Shown: one piece after another, positions 3,462-20,986 of the stretch
Layout of the letters: each line of letters starts with the position of its first letter
Position numbering within the stretch: position 1 is the stretch's first letter
From: a virus
Direction: 5' to 3' (one strand)
DNA: 20,986 nt
Virus record (IMG/VR): IMGVR_UViG_3300042565_002255
Location: 1 to 20,986 of that record
Notes under the pieces: model-generated
The model's database searches: none
Seen by the model: the letters and a program-made list of their open reading frames with translations, nothing else
Told to the model about the DNA's origin: nothing
Position numbers and translations under genes: made by a program

Positions 3462-3937
3462 GCCGCACCATCGGCTATGTGAGCGGCGCACGCTACGAGA
3501 AACGAGTAGAACGATTCACGGCTGGCGGTACTTTCACGCCACCTGCTGGTGTCTCGTATGCGATTGCGCACATTCGTGGTGGCGGTGGTGCTGCTGCTGG
3601 CAGTGTCGCTAATGGTGGCAGTAGTTCAGTTGCGTTCGCAGGTGGCACGATAACTGCCAACGGTGGCACATCAGTGACGGCTTATTCAGAAGGCACGACT
3701 GGAACGGCTGGTGCAGACAACGGCGGTCAAGGCGGTTTCACTTTCGGTGGCAACGGCTTCGGCTCGGTGACTGTTGTGTTGCGTGGTGCTGATGGGGCTT
3801 ATGTTGTCGCAGGTGGCGCAGTCACTGCAGGTACAGGAATTACGGTGACAGTTGGTGCAGGTGGCACAGGAACCAAAGCAGGCGGAAGCGGCTATGTGTG
3901 GATTGAGTACGAACAACCAGTGGGGGCAGGACTATGA
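3458..3937 (+). CDS. Glycine-rich tail fibre / adhesin-like protein
   Basis: A 159-residue protein starting at the ATGA overlap with the previous stop. The N-terminus (VERFTAGGTFTPPAGVSYAI) followed by a glycine tract (HIRGGGGAAAG) and many GG-containing turns is typical of phage tail-fibre glycine-rich domains, where glycine loops or polyglycine helices present host-range-determining surfaces. Near the end it has GTGTKAGGSGYVWIEY, a common closing phrase of such domains. Codon choice is strikingly GGT-rich compared with the GGA/GGG/GGC pattern of neighbours, consistent with module exchange. Receptor recognition is inferred from family resemblance; the receptor cannot be guessed. Confidence 0.68.
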   Translation: MSRTIGYVSGARYEKRVERFTAGGTFTPPAGVSYAIAHIRGGGGAAAGSVANGGSSSVAFAGGTITANGGTSVTAYSEGTTGTAGADNGGQGGFTFGGNGFGSVTVVLRGADGAYVVAGGAVTAGTGITVTVGAGGTGTKAGGSGYVWIEYEQPVGAGL

Positions 3938-4140
3938 GCCAGCGAACAGTTGCAGTTATTGAACCTGATGTGACGAACGGTGTGGTAGTGAATGTTGTTG
4001 TTGTTGCACCAGATTGGGTGAATGACGACCCGACACATCTCATTGAGTACACACCTGAGAATCCTGCTGGCATCGGTTGGGAAGTAGTGAACGGTGTAGT
4101 TATCGTGCCACCACCACCACCAAAGCCTGACGCTGAATAA
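3934..4140 (+). CDS. Small proline-tailed protein downstream of tail fibre
   Basis: A 68-residue protein coupled to the glycine-rich gene by ATGA at 3934-3937. It begins with a beta-like segment (RTVAVIEPDVTNGVVVNVVV) and ends with WEVVNGVVIVPPPPPKPDAE. Small proteins of this shape, with a repeated NGVVxNV-type strand and a C-terminal proline run, accompany fibre genes in many environmental phages and may be fibre attachment or chaperone-like partners; this is an analogy, not a proven function. Composition matches the two preceding genes (GTT/GTG-rich), so it belongs to the same atypical block. After it, composition returns to the window norm. Confidence 0.55.
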   Translation: MSQRTVAVIEPDVTNGVVVNVVVVAPDWVNDDPTHLIEYTPENPAGIGWEVVNGVVIVPPPPPKPDAE

Positions 4141-4161
4141 CACCTGAAAGCGAGACACCAA

Positions 4162-4368
4162 ATGATGCTGAATGAACGCCAGCAGGCCGCCCTCTCCTCC
4201 TATCTGAGGAGCGTTGTAGCTGCAGCTCTCGCAGTCGCATCTACGGGGAACTATGCGCCCGAGGATCTCGCAAAGGCGGCCCTAGCAGCTGCCCTCCCTC
4301 CTCTGTTGCGATGGGCAAACCCGAAGGATCCAGCGTTCGGCAGAGGATCGCAGGATGAAGCCGCCTGA
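4162..4368 (+). CDS. Small hydrophobic phage protein at the start of the lysis region
   Basis: A 68-residue protein, ATG at 4162 with a second in-frame ATG at 4165. It has an alanine-rich hydrophobic stretch (SVVAAALAVASTG, about residues 17-29), then another (AKAALAAALPPLLRWANP) ending in the phrase WANPKDPAFG. Similar small proteins with a C-terminal NPKD-type motif sit next to endolysin genes in environmental phages. The hydrophobic stretches could be membrane-interacting, so holin or lysis-accessory is possible, but they are short and alanine-rich and I would not call a holin from this. Its end overlaps the endolysin start by 14 nt. No good Shine-Dalgarno is seen (GAAAGCGAGA is weak). Confidence 0.6.
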   Translation: MMLNERQQAALSSYLRSVVAAALAVASTGNYAPEDLAKAALAAALPPLLRWANPKDPAFGRGSQDEAA

Positions 4369-10536: not shown

Positions 10537-10925
10537 TGGGAGGGAATCTGCAACTATTCCAGCCAACGAACGGGCTTGGGATGGCATCAGAGGTTGTAAA
10601 TCCGATGATGAAGGAGGAGCCTGAGAGGCTCGCCAGAGCATCAGATCCCTCTACCTCCCATCGGGCAGCTCAGATAGCGGCCATCCGAGGCAAATCTCAG
10701 AAGGCTCTCCTCCTGCTCGCCTATCAGCGAGCCGAGGAGAGAGGGCTGACCGATGAGGAGGCTGGAGCATCGGCTGGGCTCTCAGGCTCAGGGTATTGGA
10801 AGCGATGCTCAGAGCTGAGAACGCTCGGGCTCATCGCTCCCTCAGGGAAAGAGAGGCAAGCATCGTCGGGCCTCATGGTGCAGGTTTGCTCCATAACGCT
10901 CGCAGGGATGAGAGCCCTCTCGTGA
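10536..10925 (+). CDS. Winged HTH-like protein
   Basis: A 129-residue protein whose ATG overlaps the previous stop by one base (TAATG). Residues about 53-105 form a winged-helix-like domain: KSQKALLLLAYQRAEERGLT, DEEAGASAGLSGSGYWKRCS, ELRTLGLIAPSGKERQASSG. The phrase ASAGLSGSGYWKRCSELRTLGLI is a turn and recognition helix followed by a wing. The N-terminal 40 residues look disordered, and DPSTSHRAA is a phrase common in such phage proteins. It sits next to recombination genes and just before the WhiB gene (GTGA overlap). It may regulate the operon or assist DNA processing; no evidence separates these. Confidence 0.6.
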   Translation: MGGNLQLFQPTNGLGMASEVVNPMMKEEPERLARASDPSTSHRAAQIAAIRGKSQKALLLLAYQRAEERGLTDEEAGASAGLSGSGYWKRCSELRTLGLIAPSGKERQASSGLMVQVCSITLAGMRALS

Positions 10926-11236
10926 CGTATCGAGGCGATTGGCGAGAGAGAGCAGCCTGCCGGGGCGTTCCCCCAGACCTGTTCTTCCCTCCGAAGCCGA
11001 GAACGACAGCAAACTACAAGGCGGCCAAGAAAATTTGTGAGAAATGCCCTGTTCAGGAGCAGTGCCTCAACCTCGTTCTCCCTCTGGAGACAGTGGATGA
11101 TCGCTTCGGCCTATTCGGAGGGATGACCCCATCCGAGAGGAGGAGGCTCAGATTCAAGATGAGGCTGGGGAGTGCCGACTACGGTGTTAGAGATGGAACA
11201 GCACGAACGCAAGGGCGAGTGTCAGGGAAATCGTGA
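10922..11236 (+). CDS. WhiB-family Fe-S transcription factor
   Basis: A 104-residue protein. Start GTG 10922 overlaps the upstream stop (GTGA); an upstream in-frame ATG would add residues in the wrong frame context. Four cysteines in WhiB spacing are visible: C13 (AACRGV), C39-x-x-C42 and C48 (KKICEKCPVQEQC), which hold a [4Fe-4S] cluster in the family. The turn FGLFGGMTPSERR follows; most WhiB proteins have G-V/I-W-G-G here, so the Trp is replaced by Phe. WhiB proteins bind the primary sigma factor of actinobacteria and change promoter choice; phage copies have been reported to act on host WhiB pathways. This gene is the best single pointer to an actinobacterial host. Confidence 0.85.
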   Translation: MTYRGDWRERAACRGVPPDLFFPPKPRTTANYKAAKKICEKCPVQEQCLNLVLPLETVDDRFGLFGGMTPSERRRLRFKMRLGSADYGVRDGTARTQGRVSGKS

Positions 11237-11642: not shown

Positions 11643-11656
11643 ACAAGAGGGCTCTG

Positions 11657-13303
11657 ATGGATGAGAAGCTCGGCGTTGTCTCCCTGTTCTCTGGCGTTGG
11701 AGGAATGGAACTCGGATTGGAGAGGGCAGGGATGCGCTCGGTGTACCAATGTGAGATTGACAAACATTGCCAGAGCATCCTTGAACATCATTGGCCGGGT
11801 TTGCCCCGATGGGATGATGTCTCTACGCTGACTGCGAAGGAGATCCTCTCCAAAGTAGATCGTGCTGATGTGATCGCTTGGGGCTCTCCCTGCCAAGATT
11901 TGTCTGTAGCAGGACGCAGAGCAGGGCTCGCAGGTTCACGCTCGTCGCTATTCCACGAAGGTATGAGAATCATCCGAGAGATGAGAGAGGAAACAAATGG
12001 AAAGTATCCAAGAATCTCTATTTGGGAGAATGTCGCAGGAGCCCTCACTTCCAACAAGGGAGCTGACTTCGGGATCGTCCTCGATGCGATGGCAGAAGCA
12101 GGGGCGATGGTCTGCGAGTGGCGGCTGCTGGATGCACAATACTTCGGAATCCCCCAACGGCGTAGAAGAGTGTTCCTCGTCGCTGTCTTTGATTCTGATG
12201 TCGCAGAGCGAAGTTCCAATCCGATACTCTCTCTCAGCGAAGGCTTGCGAAGGTATCCTGCGCCGAGCAGCTCGGAGAGGCAAGGTTCTCCCGGCGAGGT
12301 TGCAGCGAGCCCTAGAGGAGAGGGCTCAGGGGTTGCCTACACCAAATCCAAGCGACCCAGAAGCGTAGAGAATGATGAGACTTGGGAGGCTGGCCGCCCG
12401 GCTCCGACGCTGAACGCATTTGATCAGGGCGATGTTCGCTCTACAACTGTTGTTGTTGCGGCGAGCGAGGGGCAGGGAGTGATTTCGTTCCCGACGAACT
12501 TCGGGTCTTATGCTCAGGCTACGGAGGAGATAGCTCAGAGCATGGCAGTCAAAGCAGGGCCGCCCTCGATCATGCAGGAGAATCACGCTCGCCCTGTCGG
12601 TCAGCCTGTTCTCGGATCGGAGATTGTTGGGCCGCTCTCGGCTTGCGATTGGAAGTATCCACAGAATCAGCAACTAGCAGAGAACAAGTTCATCGTTGCC
12701 GAGGAGCCTGTGCTGATGCGCCAGCGAGAGGGCAAAGCCGGGGGAGGTAAAGGGCCGCTGCTATCGCACAACAAATCTTTGACGCTCGCTGTGAACAACG
12801 ATCAGTATCTGTTCCAAGCCGAGGAGGATCCGATACTGTTTGAGAACTCGTACCGAGACAATGTGAGAGTTCAGCACGATGGCATCTTCCCGACGCTGAC
12901 TGCGAAGATGGGAACAGGAGGGAACAATACGCCGATGTTGGCGCATGAGCAGCCTGTCGCTTTCTCCATCCGAGAGGATGCGAAGGCGAACACATTCTCT
13001 GCTACGCAGCTAGACCGAGCGAACGCTCTTTCAGCCCTCCAGCCCTCGCCTCAATCGCATCACGCCCAGATGTTCATCACAGATGTTGCCCTAGAGAGCC
13101 CTCCTCGGATGATTGTGCGCCGACTGATGCCGATCGAGTGCGAACGGCTGATGGGATGGCCCGATGATTGGACACGCTGGAGAGCCGATGGCAAGGAGCA
13201 GGCTGATACGCATCGCTACAAACAATGCGGCAACGGAGTTGCTTCGCCCTGCTCGGAATGGATTGGGGGCATCATCGCCCGGCTCCTCGGAGGCTCCTCC
13301 TGA
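11657..13303 (+). CDS. C5-cytosine DNA methyltransferase with large insertion
   Basis: A 548-residue protein. ATG 11657 is chosen: AAGAGG lies six bases upstream and the catalytic domain starts at once. Motif I is SLFSGVGGMELGLERAG (11-25), motif IV GSPCQDLSVAGRRAGL (C79 nucleophile), motif VI ENV (124-126), motif VIII QRRRRVF (167-173), motif IX RRLMPIECERLMGWPDDWT (near 490-506) and motif X KQCGNGVASP (near 522-531). The enzyme transfers methyl groups to C5 of cytosine, presumably to protect phage DNA. The stretch of about 300 residues between motifs VIII and IX is far longer than a typical target-recognition region and contains repeated P-T-L-like phrases. Target sequence is unknown. Confidence 0.9.
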   Translation: MDEKLGVVSLFSGVGGMELGLERAGMRSVYQCEIDKHCQSILEHHWPGLPRWDDVSTLTAKEILSKVDRADVIAWGSPCQDLSVAGRRAGLAGSRSSLFHEGMRIIREMREETNGKYPRISIWENVAGALTSNKGADFGIVLDAMAEAGAMVCEWRLLDAQYFGIPQRRRRVFLVAVFDSDVAERSSNPILSLSEGLRRYPAPSSSERQGSPGEVAASPRGEGSGVAYTKSKRPRSVENDETWEAGRPAPTLNAFDQGDVRSTTVVVAASEGQGVISFPTNFGSYAQATEEIAQSMAVKAGPPSIMQENHARPVGQPVLGSEIVGPLSACDWKYPQNQQLAENKFIVAEEPVLMRQREGKAGGGKGPLLSHNKSLTLAVNNDQYLFQAEEDPILFENSYRDNVRVQHDGIFPTLTAKMGTGGNNTPMLAHEQPVAFSIREDAKANTFSATQLDRANALSALQPSPQSHHAQMFITDVALESPPRMIVRRLMPIECERLMGWPDDWTRWRADGKEQADTHRYKQCGNGVASPCSEWIGGIIARLLGGSS

Positions 13304-15117: not shown

Positions 15118-15344
15118 TGAAACGCTCCTACAACTGCGCCTACTGCACGGAGACATTCGCATCTCCATCCGACCACATCTCTCATCTCATGCAGGCGCAT
15201 CCTCGCCTCCATCAGGGGAGAGTACCGAGGGAGAGGCAACTACGCCGACCCTCCTTCTGCCCATCATGCGCCTCAGAGATAGCAGTCGGAGAGAGGCTCT
15301 GCTCATGTGGAGCCATCGCCCCAGCGTTCAGGAGCGTGGCATGA
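15117..15344 (+). CDS. C2H2 zinc-finger plus zinc-ribbon small protein
   Basis: A 75-residue basic protein from ATG 15117, which shares its first base with the previous stop (TAATG). It carries a classic C-x2-C-x12-H-x4-H finger (CAYCTETFASPSDHISHLMQ then AH, residues 7-28) and then a second cluster CPSCASEIAVGERLCSCG (C-x2-C-x10-C-x-C), typical of a zinc ribbon. Basic residues between the two (RVPRERQLRRPS) could contact nucleic acid. C2H2 fingers are uncommon in phages compared with ribbons; actinophages have a few such small proteins. A nucleic-acid-binding or host-protein-binding role is an inference. It is coupled to the ArdA-like gene by a four-base overlap. Confidence 0.68.
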   Translation: MKRSYNCAYCTETFASPSDHISHLMQAHPRLHQGRVPRERQLRRPSFCPSCASEIAVGERLCSCGAIAPAFRSVA

Positions 15345-15952
15345 CCGACAAACGGATAGCTGCATGGATTGGCTGTCTCGGATGCCACAATGAGGGCGTT
15401 CTGAACGGTCAATGGATTTCAGTAGAAGAGGCATCCGAGGAGAATGCTCGCATCGAGAACGAGGAGATTCCTCTCGGAGCCGATGTGCTGAAAGGTATCG
15501 CAACGATGGAGCCTCTCGGAGAGCATTCCGGGCGACCCGTTTGCAAACGATGTGCATCCGATGAGTTTCAGGTGTTTGACACCGAGCATCTCGCAGGAGG
15601 CCGAAGCCAAAGTTGGGGAGAGTTCTATCATCTCTCCAGCATCCTGAGCGAGCTGGATGAGGATGATCGCGAGCGTTTCCTGTTCGTTATGAGCAACTTC
15701 CACTACGGATGGGATGCCAAACAGATAGAGGAGGCTGACGCATGGAACGAAACCTTCTATGTCGGCTTCTACAGCGAACTCTCCGACCTCGCCTCCGAAC
15801 TCGTAGAGGGCTGCATCTCGCCCGATGCCGAGCTCCTCGGCAGGCCGCTAATAGATTGGATTGACATGGATGAGGTGTGGCGATACACCCTCCAGCATGA
15901 CTACATCACGAACGCAACTGAGGGAGGATACGACGTATGGCTCAACGGATAA
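15341..15952 (+). CDS. ArdA-like antirestriction protein
   Basis: A 203-residue acidic protein. ATG 15341 is preceded by AGGAG at 15330-15334 and overlaps the previous stop; a start at 15266 would run through the zinc-finger gene. It begins with AAWIGCLGCHNEGVLNGQWI, like the AWVGxLxxYNxG start of ArdA proteins, continues through EFQVFDTEHL and has the long acidic middle part WGEFYHLSSILSELDEDDRE before LIDWIDMDEVWRYTLQHDYI. ArdA proteins are acidic DNA mimics that bind type I restriction enzymes and block them. Four cysteines (two CxxC pairs: GCLGC and CKRC) may bind zinc, which is not standard for ArdA. Family call is probable, function inferred. Confidence 0.75.
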   Translation: MTDKRIAAWIGCLGCHNEGVLNGQWISVEEASEENARIENEEIPLGADVLKGIATMEPLGEHSGRPVCKRCASDEFQVFDTEHLAGGRSQSWGEFYHLSSILSELDEDDRERFLFVMSNFHYGWDAKQIEEADAWNETFYVGFYSELSDLASELVEGCISPDAELLGRPLIDWIDMDEVWRYTLQHDYITNATEGGYDVWLNG

Positions 15953-16753: not shown

Positions 16754-16997
16754 CCTCTACTATCATGCAGCTGTGGCCGTAGAACAGGCGAAAGCGGCTG
16801 ACGATTTGCGTTTGGAGAGGGATGAACTCCAGCAGAGAGTCTCTGAGCTATCAGCCGCCATCGAGCTGTGGCGAGAGAAATCAGAAAACCTCGCAGATGC
16901 AGCTGCATCTCTCGCAGCTGAACTCGATCACTACAAACTCAAAGCCGCAGTGCTCCAATCTCAAATCCAGCGCATCCACGAAATCTTTGAGATCTGA
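16728..16997 (+). CDS. Coiled-coil small protein
   Basis: An 89-residue protein from GTG 16728, with GAGGAGG about seven bases upstream. Most of it is an amphipathic coiled coil: LRLERDELQQRVSELSAAIE, LWREKSENLADAAASLAAEL and DHYKLKAAVLQSQIQRIHEI follow a heptad-like pattern. Its stop (TGATGG) overlaps the ATG of the ParB-methyltransferase gene by one base, so the two are probably translated together. It could serve as a dimerisation partner, but there is no direct sign of this. Function unknown. Confidence 0.6.
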   Translation: MSATRQPDDLYYHAAVAVEQAKAADDLRLERDELQQRVSELSAAIELWREKSENLADAAASLAAELDHYKLKAAVLQSQIQRIHEIFEI

Positions 16998-18415
16998 TGG
17001 CTCGCCTCCTATCTACCGAACAAACAGATGTTCGCACCATCCAGCCGCATCCCCGGAATGTTCGCCAAGGAGACATCGGAGCAATCTCTCGCAGCCTAAA
17101 GGCTCACGGACAGTATCGGCCCATAGTCATCCAACAATCCTCCAGATTCATCCTTGCCGGGAATCACACATACAAAGCGGCCATCGCTCTCGGCTGGAGC
17201 GAGATTGCTACCTCCATCATCGAGTGCGACGATGACGAGGCTCTCAGAATCCTCCTAGCTGACAACAAATCCTCCGACTTAGCTGCATACGATGAGAGCC
17301 AACTCGCTGAGCTGCTCCGAGAGCTCTCAGCCTCCTCGGTCGGATTAGAGGGAACGCTCTACGATGGCGATGACTTAGACCAAATCATCTCCGACATCAA
17401 CGCCGATGCCTCCGACTATGCAGAAAGCATCTCTACAGGAGCCATCGCCCAACGCTTCGGCATCGCCCCGTTCTCTCTGCTGGATTGTCGCAGAGGCTGG
17501 TGGAAAGAGCGACGCAAGCGATGGCTCGATCTCGGCATCACATCAGAGGTCGGGCGAGATGGCAACCTGCTCAAGTTCAGCGACACCGTCCTCGGAGCAG
17601 CCGGGCGATCAGAGAACCTAACCGTTCCGAACAGCGCAATCTACAAGAACAAAGATGCAGATCGCCCACAATACAACGGCACATCCGTCTTTGATCCTGT
17701 TCTCTGCGAGCTGGCGTATCGGTGGTTCTGCCCAACAGGAGGAACAATCCTCGATCCTTTCGCAGGAGGCTCAGTCAGAGGAATCGTTGCATCGCACCTC
17801 GGGATGAACTACCGAGGGATAGAGCTGCGCCCAGAGCAGGTAGAAGCGAACAGGAAACAGTACGAGGATGTCGGCCATCGCTCAGGCTCAGCGACATGGA
17901 TAGAAGGAGACTCTGCTCGCATCATCCCCGAGAGCTCAGAACAGTACGATTTCGTGTTCTCATGCCCTCCATACCATTCGTTAGAGGTTTACAGCGACCT
18001 CCCCGGCGATCTCTCAGCAATCGAGGACTACGAACAGTTCCTCTCCTCGTATGAAGAAATCATCAGAGCATCAGCCTCCGTACTACGAGACAATCGTTTC
18101 GCCTGTTGGGTCATCTCAGAAATCCGAGATGCTGATGGCCGATACCGAAACTTCGTCGGTGACACAATAGAAATCTTTGAGCGAGCAGGGCTCTCCTACT
18201 ACAACGAAGGCATCTACATCCAGCAAGCAGGCTCATGGCCGCTTCGCATCGGACGAATGTTCGGATCATCTCGCAAGATTGCCCGGCTGCATCAGAACCT
18301 CCTCGTATTCGTCAAAGGAGATCCGAGGATTGCTACAGAGCAGCTCGGGGAAGCCGAATGGGGATTTGACAACGAACCTCAAATGCTGACGGAGGCTGAG
18401 GAGGGAATCAGCTGA
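16997..18415 (+). CDS. ParB N-terminal domain fused to a DNA methyltransferase
   Basis: A 472-residue protein. Residues 1-100 show the ParB/sulfiredoxin-like nuclease domain: QPHPRNVRQGDIGAISRSLK, GQYRPIVI, and ILAGNHTYKAAIALG. Residues 150-220 are a linking module (RFGIAPFSLLDCRRGWWKER). The methyltransferase part has motif I LDPFAGGSVRG (252-262) with E275 in RGIELRP as SAM ligand, and motif IV SCPPYHSLEVYSDLPG (322-337), where S replaces the usual D/N before PPY, as is common in this phage lineage. The last part, RLHQNLLVFVKGDP, closes the family. ParB-MTase fusions are frequent in phages and thought to modify N4-cytosine or N6-adenine. Its neighbours suggest it may supply or mark the base altered by the next two enzymes. 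Confidence 0.85.
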   Translation: MARLLSTEQTDVRTIQPHPRNVRQGDIGAISRSLKAHGQYRPIVIQQSSRFILAGNHTYKAAIALGWSEIATSIIECDDDEALRILLADNKSSDLAAYDESQLAELLRELSASSVGLEGTLYDGDDLDQIISDINADASDYAESISTGAIAQRFGIAPFSLLDCRRGWWKERRKRWLDLGITSEVGRDGNLLKFSDTVLGAAGRSENLTVPNSAIYKNKDADRPQYNGTSVFDPVLCELAYRWFCPTGGTILDPFAGGSVRGIVASHLGMNYRGIELRPEQVEANRKQYEDVGHRSGSATWIEGDSARIIPESSEQYDFVFSCPPYHSLEVYSDLPGDLSAIEDYEQFLSSYEEIIRASASVLRDNRFACWVISEIRDADGRYRNFVGDTIEIFERAGLSYYNEGIYIQQAGSWPLRIGRMFGSSRKIARLHQNLLVFVKGDPRIATEQLGEAEWGFDNEPQMLTEAEEGIS

Positions 18416-19593
18416 TGACTGACGCAAGTTCTCCAGATTGGGCGCATGGCCTCGATGTCAAGTTCCTGAAATCCATCGCTCAACTGTTCCGTTCTTACAA
18501 ACCGTATGCGATGGGGAGGTTCTCCATCCCGAACGAAGCCGAGATTGCCAGAGCAATCAGCTCAAACTCAGGGTATGTGGTCGCTGTTGGAGATAAGCCT
18601 CTCGGCTTCATGATTGCCAGCATTGCTCAGCGTGACTCTGTACGCCGAGATTTCGCAGGCCGAGCCCTCTATGTCAAACAGGGAGATTTCAGCATCCAGC
18701 ACCTAGCGTTTGCCGATGAGCTCCCGGCACACATCCTTCAGGATCATCTCCTGCAGTATGCAGGGAACAGATCGGTATGGGCTCTAATCCATGCAGAGAA
18801 TCGGGCGAAGATTCGGATGATGGAGAGCCTCGGCTTTCAGGTGATTGGCACGAAGATAGGAGCCTCCTCGGAGATGCACTCCATCCTGCTTCGTTCCAAC
18901 AGGCCAGCCATCAGACTCCCGGAGCCTCTCGATGCGGCCCATCGCCCTAGCCTCGCCATGCTCTCCGAACGATTCATTACCGAGCAAGAGCTGAGCGACA
19001 TCCGAGCCGAGATTGCCCGAGGCGTTGAGTGGGCTGATCACTACTCCTCCTACAACCTGCGCCACTCATGGTCAGCAATCTCGCTTCGGGGCTACTCCGA
19101 TGATCCCTCGTTTATCATCAAGCCTGCAGAGATGTCAAAGAAATGGCGTGAGGCACATTGGGCGATGCTTTCAGCCCCTGTCAGAGATACGCCTCTCATG
19201 GCTCGCTTCCCAACGGTTGCCGCTGTCTGCAGCCGCCTCGGAACAGACCTGCAGAGGGTCAGATTCATGAGGGTCAGGGCAGAGGATGGAGGGCTCTCTC
19301 GCCATGCCGACATCACAGATCGAGAGGCTGGCCCGATGCCCGGGCAAATCGCCCGGCTGCACATCCCCATCAACTCGGAGCCTGTCTGCCGATTCCAAGC
19401 ATGGAACCTCGCAGGGGAGAAACTGCAGGCCCATCTCCCTGAACGCTCCCTTTGGTATCTAGATACGAGAAAGCCTCACGCAGTCAGCAACGCAGGAGCA
19501 GACCATGATCGCATCCATCTCGTCATTGACGCAGTATCAACAGAGGCCCTCTGCCGATGGATTGCAGCATCGCAGGAGGAACCTGCAGCATGA
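18415..19593 (+). CDS. GNAT acyltransferase fused to an Asp/Asn-hydroxylase-like 2OG oxygenase
   Basis: A 392-residue protein whose ATG shares its first base with the previous stop. Residues about 50-160 form a GNAT domain: YVVAVGDKPLGFMIAS, then FSIQHLAFADELPAHILQDH and VWALIHAENRAKIRMMESLG followed by FQVIGT, the classic eN.ra...m..lGF motif B. Residues about 285-375 form a double-stranded beta-helix 2OG-Fe(II) oxygenase: SRHADITD (H297, D299), QIARLHIPI, ERSLWYLDTRKPHAVSN (H355) and DRIHLVID (R366), matching the H-x-D...H plus Arg set of Asp/Asn hydroxylase-like enzymes. Fe and 2-oxoglutarate dependence follows from the motif. This fusion next to a DNA methyltransferase suggests base hydroxylation and acylation; substrate unproven. 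Confidence 0.78.
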   Translation: MTDASSPDWAHGLDVKFLKSIAQLFRSYKPYAMGRFSIPNEAEIARAISSNSGYVVAVGDKPLGFMIASIAQRDSVRRDFAGRALYVKQGDFSIQHLAFADELPAHILQDHLLQYAGNRSVWALIHAENRAKIRMMESLGFQVIGTKIGASSEMHSILLRSNRPAIRLPEPLDAAHRPSLAMLSERFITEQELSDIRAEIARGVEWADHYSSYNLRHSWSAISLRGYSDDPSFIIKPAEMSKKWREAHWAMLSAPVRDTPLMARFPTVAAVCSRLGTDLQRVRFMRVRAEDGGLSRHADITDREAGPMPGQIARLHIPINSEPVCRFQAWNLAGEKLQAHLPERSLWYLDTRKPHAVSNAGADHDRIHLVIDAVSTEALCRWIAASQEEPAA

Positions 19594-20333
19594 GAAAGCC
19601 TTGGGAGGAGCCGTTCAAGATCACCGAGCATGATGGCTACAGAGCCATCCGAGATGACCTGCTCGATGGGGGAACGAAGCTGCGCTTCCTGCCCCATGTC
19701 GTAGGAGATGCCGATCATGTCGTATTCGGCGGCCCATTCGCAGGAGGAGCCCCTGTCAGCCTCTCCGTCCTCGGCAGAGAAACAAGGAAACGCATCACCA
19801 TCTTCTACGCATGGAGGAAACAGCTCCACCCGAGGATGCGCCGTGTGCAACGCAACGGAGCGCACCTAGAGCTGGTCAAACCCGGCTACATGACCGTTGT
19901 TCAGAAGCGAGCCCGAGACTATGCCCAACAATCGGGAGCCCTGTTCCTCCCTCTCGGCTTTGACACAGCAGCCGCCAGAGATCCGTTCAGGGCAGTCCTC
20001 TCCAACCTTCGGGCGCAAATCGGGGAGCCTGACGAGATCTGGTGCGCTGCAGGCTCCGGGATGATGGCCCTCAACATCGCCCATTGCTTCCCCTCCTCCC
20101 AGATAAACGCTGTCGCTGTCGGCCTCGCCTCACGATGGAGCAAGCAGGAGCTCCCAGCCAACTGCACCATCCATGAGCAGCCCCTCCCATTTGACAAACC
20201 CCTCGCCTCATCGGCCCCGTTCCCTATCTGCGCCCACTATGAGGCGAAAGCATTCCGGGCGATGCAGGCCGCCATCAGAGCCCAACCCCAGAGGACTCGC
20301 CTGTTCTGGAATGTCCTCGGCTGGGAGGGCTAA
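19590..20333 (+). CDS. Fold-type II PLP-enzyme homologue
   Basis: A 247-residue protein. ATG 19590 overlaps the previous stop (ATGA), with AGGAGGA at 19574-19580. It resembles ACC-deaminase/D-cysteine desulfhydrase-type PLP enzymes: IRDDLLDGGTKLRFLP (K30 is the expected PLP lysine), DHVVFGGPFAGGAPVSL, HPRMRRVQRNGAHLELVKPG, PLGFDTAAARDP and EIWCAAGSGMMALNIAH, the last being the phosphate-binding glycine loop region. It is shorter than the about 330 residues of cellular enzymes and ends with RLFWNVLGWEG. Phage proteins of this type occur near DNA methyltransferases. Possible action on an amino-acid-like group attached to a base, or provision of one, is an inference. Confidence 0.7.
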   Translation: MRKPWEEPFKITEHDGYRAIRDDLLDGGTKLRFLPHVVGDADHVVFGGPFAGGAPVSLSVLGRETRKRITIFYAWRKQLHPRMRRVQRNGAHLELVKPGYMTVVQKRARDYAQQSGALFLPLGFDTAAARDPFRAVLSNLRAQIGEPDEIWCAAGSGMMALNIAHCFPSSQINAVAVGLASRWSKQELPANCTIHEQPLPFDKPLASSAPFPICAHYEAKAFRAMQAAIRAQPQRTRLFWNVLGWEG

Positions 20334-20780: not shown

Positions 20781-20986
20781 ATGATCCTGAGAGCCTGCCT
20801 CTCCTGCGGCCAACTGCAGGCGAACAGCCGATGCTCATCCTGCTCAGCAGCTCAGGAGCAACGCCGATACAGGAAACGAACCCACTATCACGGAGACTAC
20901 AAACGCCGAGCAGCCGAGATCAGAGCCAACGCCGAGATCTGCTGGATCTGCCAACAGGGAGCCCGACCTGATGATCCGTGGACTGC
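20781..20986 (+). CDS. HNH endonuclease, N-terminal part (3' end outside window)
   Basis: The frame from ATG 20781 is open to the end of the window (68 residues seen). It starts ILRACLSCGQLQANSRCSSC, a treble-clef style C-x2-C ... C-x2-C knuckle, followed by a basic region RRYRKRTHYHGDYKRRAAEI and a second pair CWICQQGARPDDPWT. In HNH nucleases of this phage type the next residues would give the DH(V)xP catalytic motif, which lies beyond the window. Such small HNH proteins usually sit next to the terminase genes and help DNA packaging or cos cleavage, so terminase genes may lie just to the right. Transcription probably starts at the repeat directly before the ATG. Confidence 0.75.
   Translation, partial: MILRACLSCGQLQANSRCSSCSAAQEQRRYRKRTHYHGDYKRRAAEIRANAEICWICQQGARPDDPWT

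Follow-up and report, generated by a model that had tools for sequence, protein, structure and literature searches.

A candidate DNA hypermodification cassette of phages that joins a ParB-methyltransferase, a GNAT-2-oxoglutarate oxygenase and a PLP-enzyme homologue

The IMG/VR virus record IMGVR_UViG_3300042565_002255, analysed here over its entire 20,986 nucleotides (the window) and possibly a fragment of a virus, carries three joined genes for which an original prediction had proposed a role in DNA hypermodification. The first encodes a ParB domain followed by an S-adenosylmethionine (SAM)-dependent methyltransferase (ParB-MTase), the second a GNAT-fold domain fused to an Fe(II)/2-oxoglutarate oxygenase (GNAT-2OG) and the third a homologue of the fold-type II pyridoxal phosphate (PLP) enzymes. 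The open reading frames (ORFs) are as follows.

16997-18415, plus strand: ParB-MTase ORF, 472 amino acids
18415-19593, plus strand: GNAT-2OG ORF, 392 amino acids
19590-20333, plus strand: PLP fold-type II ORF, 247 amino acids

The three frames overlap, as had been proposed, by 1 nucleotide (the TGA at 18413-18415 shares a nucleotide with the ATG at 18415) and by 4 nucleotides (ATGA at 19590-19593). The PLP gene has an alternative in-frame ATG at 19557, but this start is less likely because GGAGGA sits about 10 nucleotides 5' of the ATG at 19590. Domain, profile and model matches confirm the identities proposed for all three proteins.

The ParB-MTase is built as follows.

Residues ~5-140: ParB N-terminal domain (ParB_N, 2e-6)
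Residues ~145-222: conserved linker
Residues ~226-460: SAM-dependent N4/N6-type methyltransferase domain (N6_N4_Mtase, 4.6e-10)

In the methyltransferase domain motif I (DPFAGGSVRG, containing R261) precedes motif IV (SCPPY, containing C323). R261 is kept in 174 of 176 aligned methyltransferases, and motif IV, for which the N4/N6 pattern is (D/N/S)PP(Y/F/W), reads (S/T)CPPY in nearly all 176 and TSPPY in a few. The ParB-MTase, with 590+ relatives, is more widespread than the PLP enzyme or GNAT-2OG.

The GNAT-2OG protein has two domains.

Residues ~1-165: GNAT-fold domain (weak in Pfam; identified by structure match)
Residues ~185-390: Asp_Arg_Hydrox-type Fe(II)/2-oxoglutarate (2OG) oxygenase

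Its AlphaFold2 model (predicted local distance difference test score, pLDDT, 95.2) matches the GNAT acetyltransferase Ard1 in the N-terminal half (E 1.5e-6) and L-proline cis-4-hydroxylase in the C-terminal domain (3e-11), with a further match to a nucleoside-antibiotic beta-hydroxylase (6e-8); the profile search agrees with the oxygenase assignment. H297, D299, H355 and R366, which make up the HxD...H iron triad and the 2OG-binding arginine, are invariant in 59/59 aligned sequences. The active site and fold are those of L-proline cis-4-hydroxylase and aspartyl beta-hydroxylase (AspH; Asp_Arg_Hydrox, PF05118), from which the window protein differs in being fused to a GNAT domain and encoded in a predicted phage DNA-modification cassette. 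Profile and structure comparisons both place the oxygenase nearest to hydroxylases of free amino acids and of the AspH type, not to the TET/JBP base oxidases. The proposal that it hydroxylates the base is thus not borne out, and an attached amino acid is the more likely target. Acyl transfer by the GNAT domain fares no better and is doubtful, since inspection by eye revealed no recognisable (Q/R)xxGx(G/A) acetyl-CoA motif in the window protein or in the relatives inspected; the fold may instead bind substrate. With Mom, the adenine-modifying protein of phage Mu, the window cassette shares the use of a GNAT fold for (here predicted) phage DNA modification; in the window this fold is joined to a 2OG oxygenase, and searches of Pfam (E<1) and PHROGs (E<0.1) returned no match to Mom. 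A Mom-like acyl or carbamoylmethyl transfer was rejected on the missing Mom match and the missing acetyl-CoA motif.

The PLP protein matches Pfam PALP at 5.9e-5, under the curated cut-off for that family, and phrog_7093 at 1e-26. The best matches of its structure model (pLDDT 93.9) are D-cysteine desulfhydrase and O-acetylserine sulfhydrylase (both ~1e-10) and a homologue of 1-aminocyclopropane-1-carboxylate (ACC) deaminase; O-acetylserine sulfhydrylase is also the closest solved structure by sequence. The Schiff-base lysine K30 and S156-G157 of the phosphate loop are invariant in 76/76 PLP sequences, G155 is nearly so, and Y217 and K220 are conserved. Two residues of the substrate loop mark a subfamily associated with GNAT-2OG: position 46 is Phe in 33 of 34 relatives with GNAT-2OG and Tyr in 41/41 without, and P55 is found in 25 of the 34 and in none (0) of those without. 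This is a hint, read from the sequences, that the PLP reaction may change when GNAT-2OG is present. The comparison of the family with that of Vincenzo gp2, Montesquieu and ViI gives an hhalign probability of 99.7 (E 1.2e-26), and the intermediate Vincenzo/Montesquieu profile matches ViI Vi01_182 at 2.9e-44. These profiles make the window PLP family a remote but clear relative of the hypermodification PLP enzymes of ViI and Montesquieu. The Montesquieu gene adjoins aGPT-Pplase clade 2, two PF18751 kinases and a thymidylate synthase/pyrimidine hydroxymethylase, a thymidine-hypermodification cluster.

The three families occur together far beyond the window. A scan of viral contigs found 207 relatives of the PLP family, and in the best 80 loci, searched within 3 kb, a methyltransferase accompanies the PLP gene in 78; the two others have PLP at a contig end (L058) or are truncated and carry GNAT-2OG (L011). 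The corresponding scan for GNAT-2OG gave 127 relatives, from which 84 loci (the window and earlier loci included) were tallied for neighbours within 4 kb. A DNA methyltransferase is present in 65 of them, 49 of these also with PLP; 9 carry an amino acid:DNA transferase (ADDT) and a PF18751 kinase, 6 of these 9 with TET as well; 6 have PLP only and 4 none of these. PLP is not required for GNAT-2OG, since 14 records with both methyltransferase and GNAT-2OG contain no detectable PALP. GNAT-2OG is almost confined to viruses, with 4 confirmed loci in 84,980 bacterial and archaeal genomes (species). Three of these loci carry GNAT-2OG, with PLP and methyltransferase nearby in two and a weak methyltransferase match in one, and the fourth encodes a standalone oxygenase-domain protein. 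The cassettes often sit before terminase genes. The phages Vincenzo and AlanGrant, which grow on M. smegmatis mc2 155, pair a ParB-MTase with a PLP gene. The neighbourhood survey that had been suggested as a check on the prediction therefore returned wide co-occurrence, and fusions besides, so that the trio is more than a chance assembly. A further enzyme common to most cassettes was sought, and none was found.

GNAT-2OG also occurs with a different set of partners. The Mycobacterium phage LilMcDreamy (L002) has the order ParB, TET/JBP-like protein, ADDT (PF18724), GNAT-2OG homologue (gp4) and PF18751 kinase (Ploopntkinase3), an arrangement repeated in the IMG/VR relatives L157-L162; Tet_JBP lies above the Pfam cut-off in L157 and L007. 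We found no paper on a TET-kinase-ADDT-GNAT-2OG cassette of this type. Two LilMcDreamy genes are probably misannotated: gp2 (855-1787, 'queuine tRNA-ribosyltransferase') appears to be TET/JBP-like (Pfam 0.002, below the cut-off, which the L157 relative passes), and gp5 (3761-4333, 'terminase small subunit') a PF18751 P-loop nucleotide kinase (1e-71). The LilMcDreamy and window cassettes have in common a ParB gene and GNAT-2OG over most of its length (~27-33% identity), whereas the former uses TET/JBP, the PF18751 kinase and ADDT and has no methyltransferase or PLP gene within 4 kb. Because it adjoins ADDT in LilMcDreamy and its kin, GNAT-2OG has a part also in systems that attach an amino acid to DNA.

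Gene fusions tie the enzymes to one another more directly. The methyltransferases of Erythrobacter phage ZS04 and Pseudanabaena phage Pam4 carry the PLP domain as an insert that separates motifs I-III from motif IV, at the position where alpha-class methyltransferases have their target-recognition domain; Erythrobacter phage R6L likewise has a methyltransferase with an inserted PLP domain. A single ORF of 1218 amino acids in L136 runs through ParB, the N-terminal half of the methyltransferase, PLP, GNAT, 2OG and the C-terminal half of the methyltransferase; in L144 the insert arrangement is divided over two ORFs, and in L130 the ParB-MTase is fused to GNAT-2OG. Such fusions are a strong argument that the three enzymes work on one substrate, that of the methyltransferase, DNA. 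The original prediction had allowed that the genes might instead modify a protein or small molecule, in which case their place beside a methyltransferase would be a coincidence of anti-defence islands. Proteins and free amino acids are indeed substrates of AspH and proline hydroxylases, and the nearest structures to the oxygenase are of this kind. Such a role is nevertheless very improbable and largely refuted by the PLP and GNAT-2OG domains that lie inside the methyltransferase; the adjacency to the methyltransferase is near-invariant, and GNAT-2OG is exchanged between methyltransferase and TET/ADDT/kinase writers. The proposed hypermodification of DNA, by contrast, is well supported by the wide co-occurrence and the fusions.

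Within the 27 records with ParB-MTase and GNAT-2OG, the window included, ADDT (PF18724; other aGPT clades lay outside the scan) and the PF18751 kinase are each absent (27/27), whereas both are present in the 3/3 TET-type control records. This distribution suggests that the TET, kinase and ADDT writer gives way to the ParB-MTase, which may or may not have PLP with it. We think it reasonably probable that the cassette makes an amino-acid-type DNA hypermodification with the ParB-MTase, alone or with PLP, standing in for a writer of the TET/hydroxymethylase-kinase-ADDT type. In the first step of such a pathway, the ParB-MTase would flip the base and use SAM to place a group on an exocyclic nitrogen, doing the work of the TET or hydroxymethylase, kinase and amino acid:DNA transferase employed elsewhere. 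By homology, the PLP enzyme would then act on, or supply, the amino-acid part of the adduct, in the manner reported for its ViI-type relatives, which decarboxylate an amino acid linked to the base. Finally, the AspH/proline-hydroxylase-type oxygenase would hydroxylate the amino-acid moiety, while the GNAT-fold half would hold the DNA-linked amino acid and not move an acyl group. The most economical model would have a methyltransferase-fold enzyme add an amino-acid-bearing or amine-reactive group and PLP and GNAT-2OG sculpt the adduct. The order of events first proposed (marking of the base, its hydroxylation, provision of a group by PLP, acyl transfer) is left unsupported by the amino-acid type of the oxygenase, the absent acetyl-CoA motif, the missing Mom match and the dispensable PLP enzyme.

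The presence of GNAT-2OG beside a methyltransferase alone would also fit direct oxidation of the group that the methyltransferase installs, for example an N-methyl group, with no amino acid involved; 2OG enzymes of the AlkB type can hydroxylate N-methyl groups. We regard this as distinctly unlikely: the oxygenase is of the amino-acid/AspH type, not AlkB or TET/JBP, the same GNAT-2OG protein adjoins an amino acid:DNA transferase, and PLP enzymes act on amines and amino acids.

Several observations weigh against an amino-acid hypermodification written by the ParB-MTase. PLP and GNAT-2OG are missing from the neighbourhood of 59 of the 77 ParB-MTase loci examined, which are commonly close to terminase genes, and the active site of the methyltransferase is alike in loci with and without PLP; for both reasons the enzyme may be a plain methylator. 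A distinct active site for the PLP-associated enzymes was rejected, as no catalytic column discriminates them from the PLP-less ones. A partner enzyme beside the latter was rejected too, the recurrent downstream families being terminase, portal and a few others. In the PLP enzyme, the substrate-carboxylate loop of cysteine synthases, TSGNT, is replaced by a GGA(Q/P) type, and because this usual loop is lost, free amino acids may not be substrates of the protein. The association of F46 and P55 with GNAT-2OG amounts to only 3-4 changes on the tree and 2 of 3 informative pairs, which is not significant; with so few changes it is a hint and no proof. The profile of the window PLP family itself matches the ViI enzyme weakly (E 0.33), so that the link to ViI goes through the intermediates. 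Most of the compared records are fragments, and absences from them are therefore no proof.

Some of these observations suit an arrangement in which the ParB-MTase works as a conventional N4/N6 methyltransferase and PLP and GNAT-2OG build a separate adduct of their own, on that base or on one next to it. PLP would here supply the amino acid by beta-replacement, the aminoacrylate formed from serine or O-acetylserine being attacked by a base nitrogen; plant relatives of cysteine synthase perform such a replacement with uracil. That most ParB-MTases stand alone, that a few have TSPPY, typical of N4/N6 methyltransferases, in place of CPPY, and that the best solved-structure match of PLP by sequence is O-acetylserine sulfhydrylase are all consistent with it. 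The 14 records lacking a detectable PALP show that PLP is not the sole source of the GNAT-2OG substrate, and the carboxylate loop of the beta-synthases is lost; on the whole we consider a separate adduct unlikely.

Returning to the ParB-MTase as the writer of the adduct, we tentatively suggest, while doubting it more than we expect it, that the enzyme moves the 3-amino-3-carboxypropyl group from SAM onto an exocyclic nitrogen of the base (+101.05 Da); PLP would then decarboxylate or otherwise reshape this group and GNAT-2OG hydroxylate it. The reason for considering this group is that it is the amino acid that a methyltransferase has at hand in SAM itself; the near-invariant R261 in motif I and the CPPY motif IV are features that may fit. 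The unchanged active site in PLP-less loci and the few members with TSPPY speak against it. If this is true, a single enzyme would take over from the hydroxymethylase/TET-kinase-ADDT route and would be, to our knowledge, the first DNA aminocarboxypropyl transferase.

A SAM-derived handle is also used by the CmoA/CmoX/CmoY system for 5-carboxymethylcytosine, which consists of a C5 methyltransferase with an SPPC motif, a carboxy-S-adenosylmethionine (Cx-SAM) synthase and an ATP ligase (PMC12783734). The logic is the same, with a methyltransferase-fold enzyme placing the handle, an amino acid added later and ParB often nearby (PMC12783734), and the window enzyme could by analogy be a DNA carboxymethyltransferase that uses Cx-SAM. 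It is of the N6_N4 type and not the SPPC C5 type, and neither CmoA (TIGR00740) nor an Asn_synthase-type ligase was found in any of the records tested (33/33), which may be fragments. We rejected the Cx-SAM route on these absences and regard it as extremely unlikely. We note separately that L156 (6746-10768) has an SPPC-motif C5-type methyltransferase near GNAT-2OG and PLP; CmoA was not found in that record.

Amino-acid hypermodification of DNA is itself already known. The thymidine hypermodifications of ViI (Salmonella) and M6 (a Pseudomonas phage), as Lee et al. are said to have described in 2018 and 2022, are amino acids installed on 5-hydroxymethyl-deoxyuridine, which PLP-dependent decarboxylases, acetyltransferases and further enzymes reportedly go on to reshape. 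The window cassette would resemble these systems in its PLP fold-type II enzyme, which belongs with ViI Vi01_182 in one broad phage family, and in the remodelling of an amino acid on DNA. It differs in that the window and 26 relatives have no 5-hydroxymethyluracil kinase or ADDT, the ParB-MTase being the apparent writer, and in its additional 2OG oxygenase, of the AspH/proline-hydroxylase type and joined to a GNAT fold. What is new here would be the ParB-MTase writer and the GNAT-2OG sculpting enzyme. In the literature that could be searched we found no description of the combination of ParB-MTase, PLP and GNAT-2OG, of its writer or of sculpting by GNAT-2OG; an earlier prediction outside it (e.g. 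Iyer 2013, Lee 2018 and 2022, Burke 2021) is possible.

Other genes lie around the cassettes. In the window they are the following.

10796-11236: WhiB-type transcription factor (4e-20), which suggests an actinobacterial host
11654-13303: separate C5-cytosine methyltransferase (PF00145, 9e-49) that contains a long insert and is oriented like the cassette
15266-15952: ArdA antirestriction protein (PF07275, 7e-10), located upstream of the cassette, which fits an anti-restriction island
20781-20986, plus strand: start of an HNH-endonuclease-like ORF, recognised by eye, cut by the record end and outside the pathway

Relatives such as L095 have a small ORF resembling the last of these next to the cassette. 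A conserved gene of 199-206 amino acids lies inside the cassette in L105 (6308-6907, a copy without Pfam match), L109 (7378-7998) and L111 (4061-4660). In loci without PLP (L112, 5603-6226; L115; L127; L159), GNAT-2OG is followed by a second small methyltransferase with 'TSLPD' replacing motif IV, and in L143 (9975-10661) such an enzyme stands alongside a Vincenzo-type PLP. In the sequenced Staphylococcus phage Alsa_1 (L254, 1717-4477) a PLP homologue (7e-17 to the PLP family) clusters with a DNA methyltransferase and an unknown protein. Genes resembling 3'-phosphoadenosine-5'-phosphosulfate (PAPS) reductase are found near the cassette in two unrelated records (L248, 3716-4396; L004, 1-939).

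The role of the cassette is probably to shield virion DNA from nucleases or bacterial defences. If the ParB-MTase is indeed the writer, phages would own a second, independent route to amino-acid-decorated DNA, one that starts from a SAM-dependent methyltransferase and not from a hydroxymethylpyrimidine, and an amino-acid hydroxylase would join the known DNA-sculpting enzymes. The pathway would account for a common phage gene set annotated as 'DNA methylase', 'ACC deaminase/threonine dehydratase' and 'hypothetical', and it would lead one to expect novel nucleosides in phages that can be cultured. The families are found in hundreds of viral contigs, so ordinary surveys of phage DNA methylation may be overlooking the modification.

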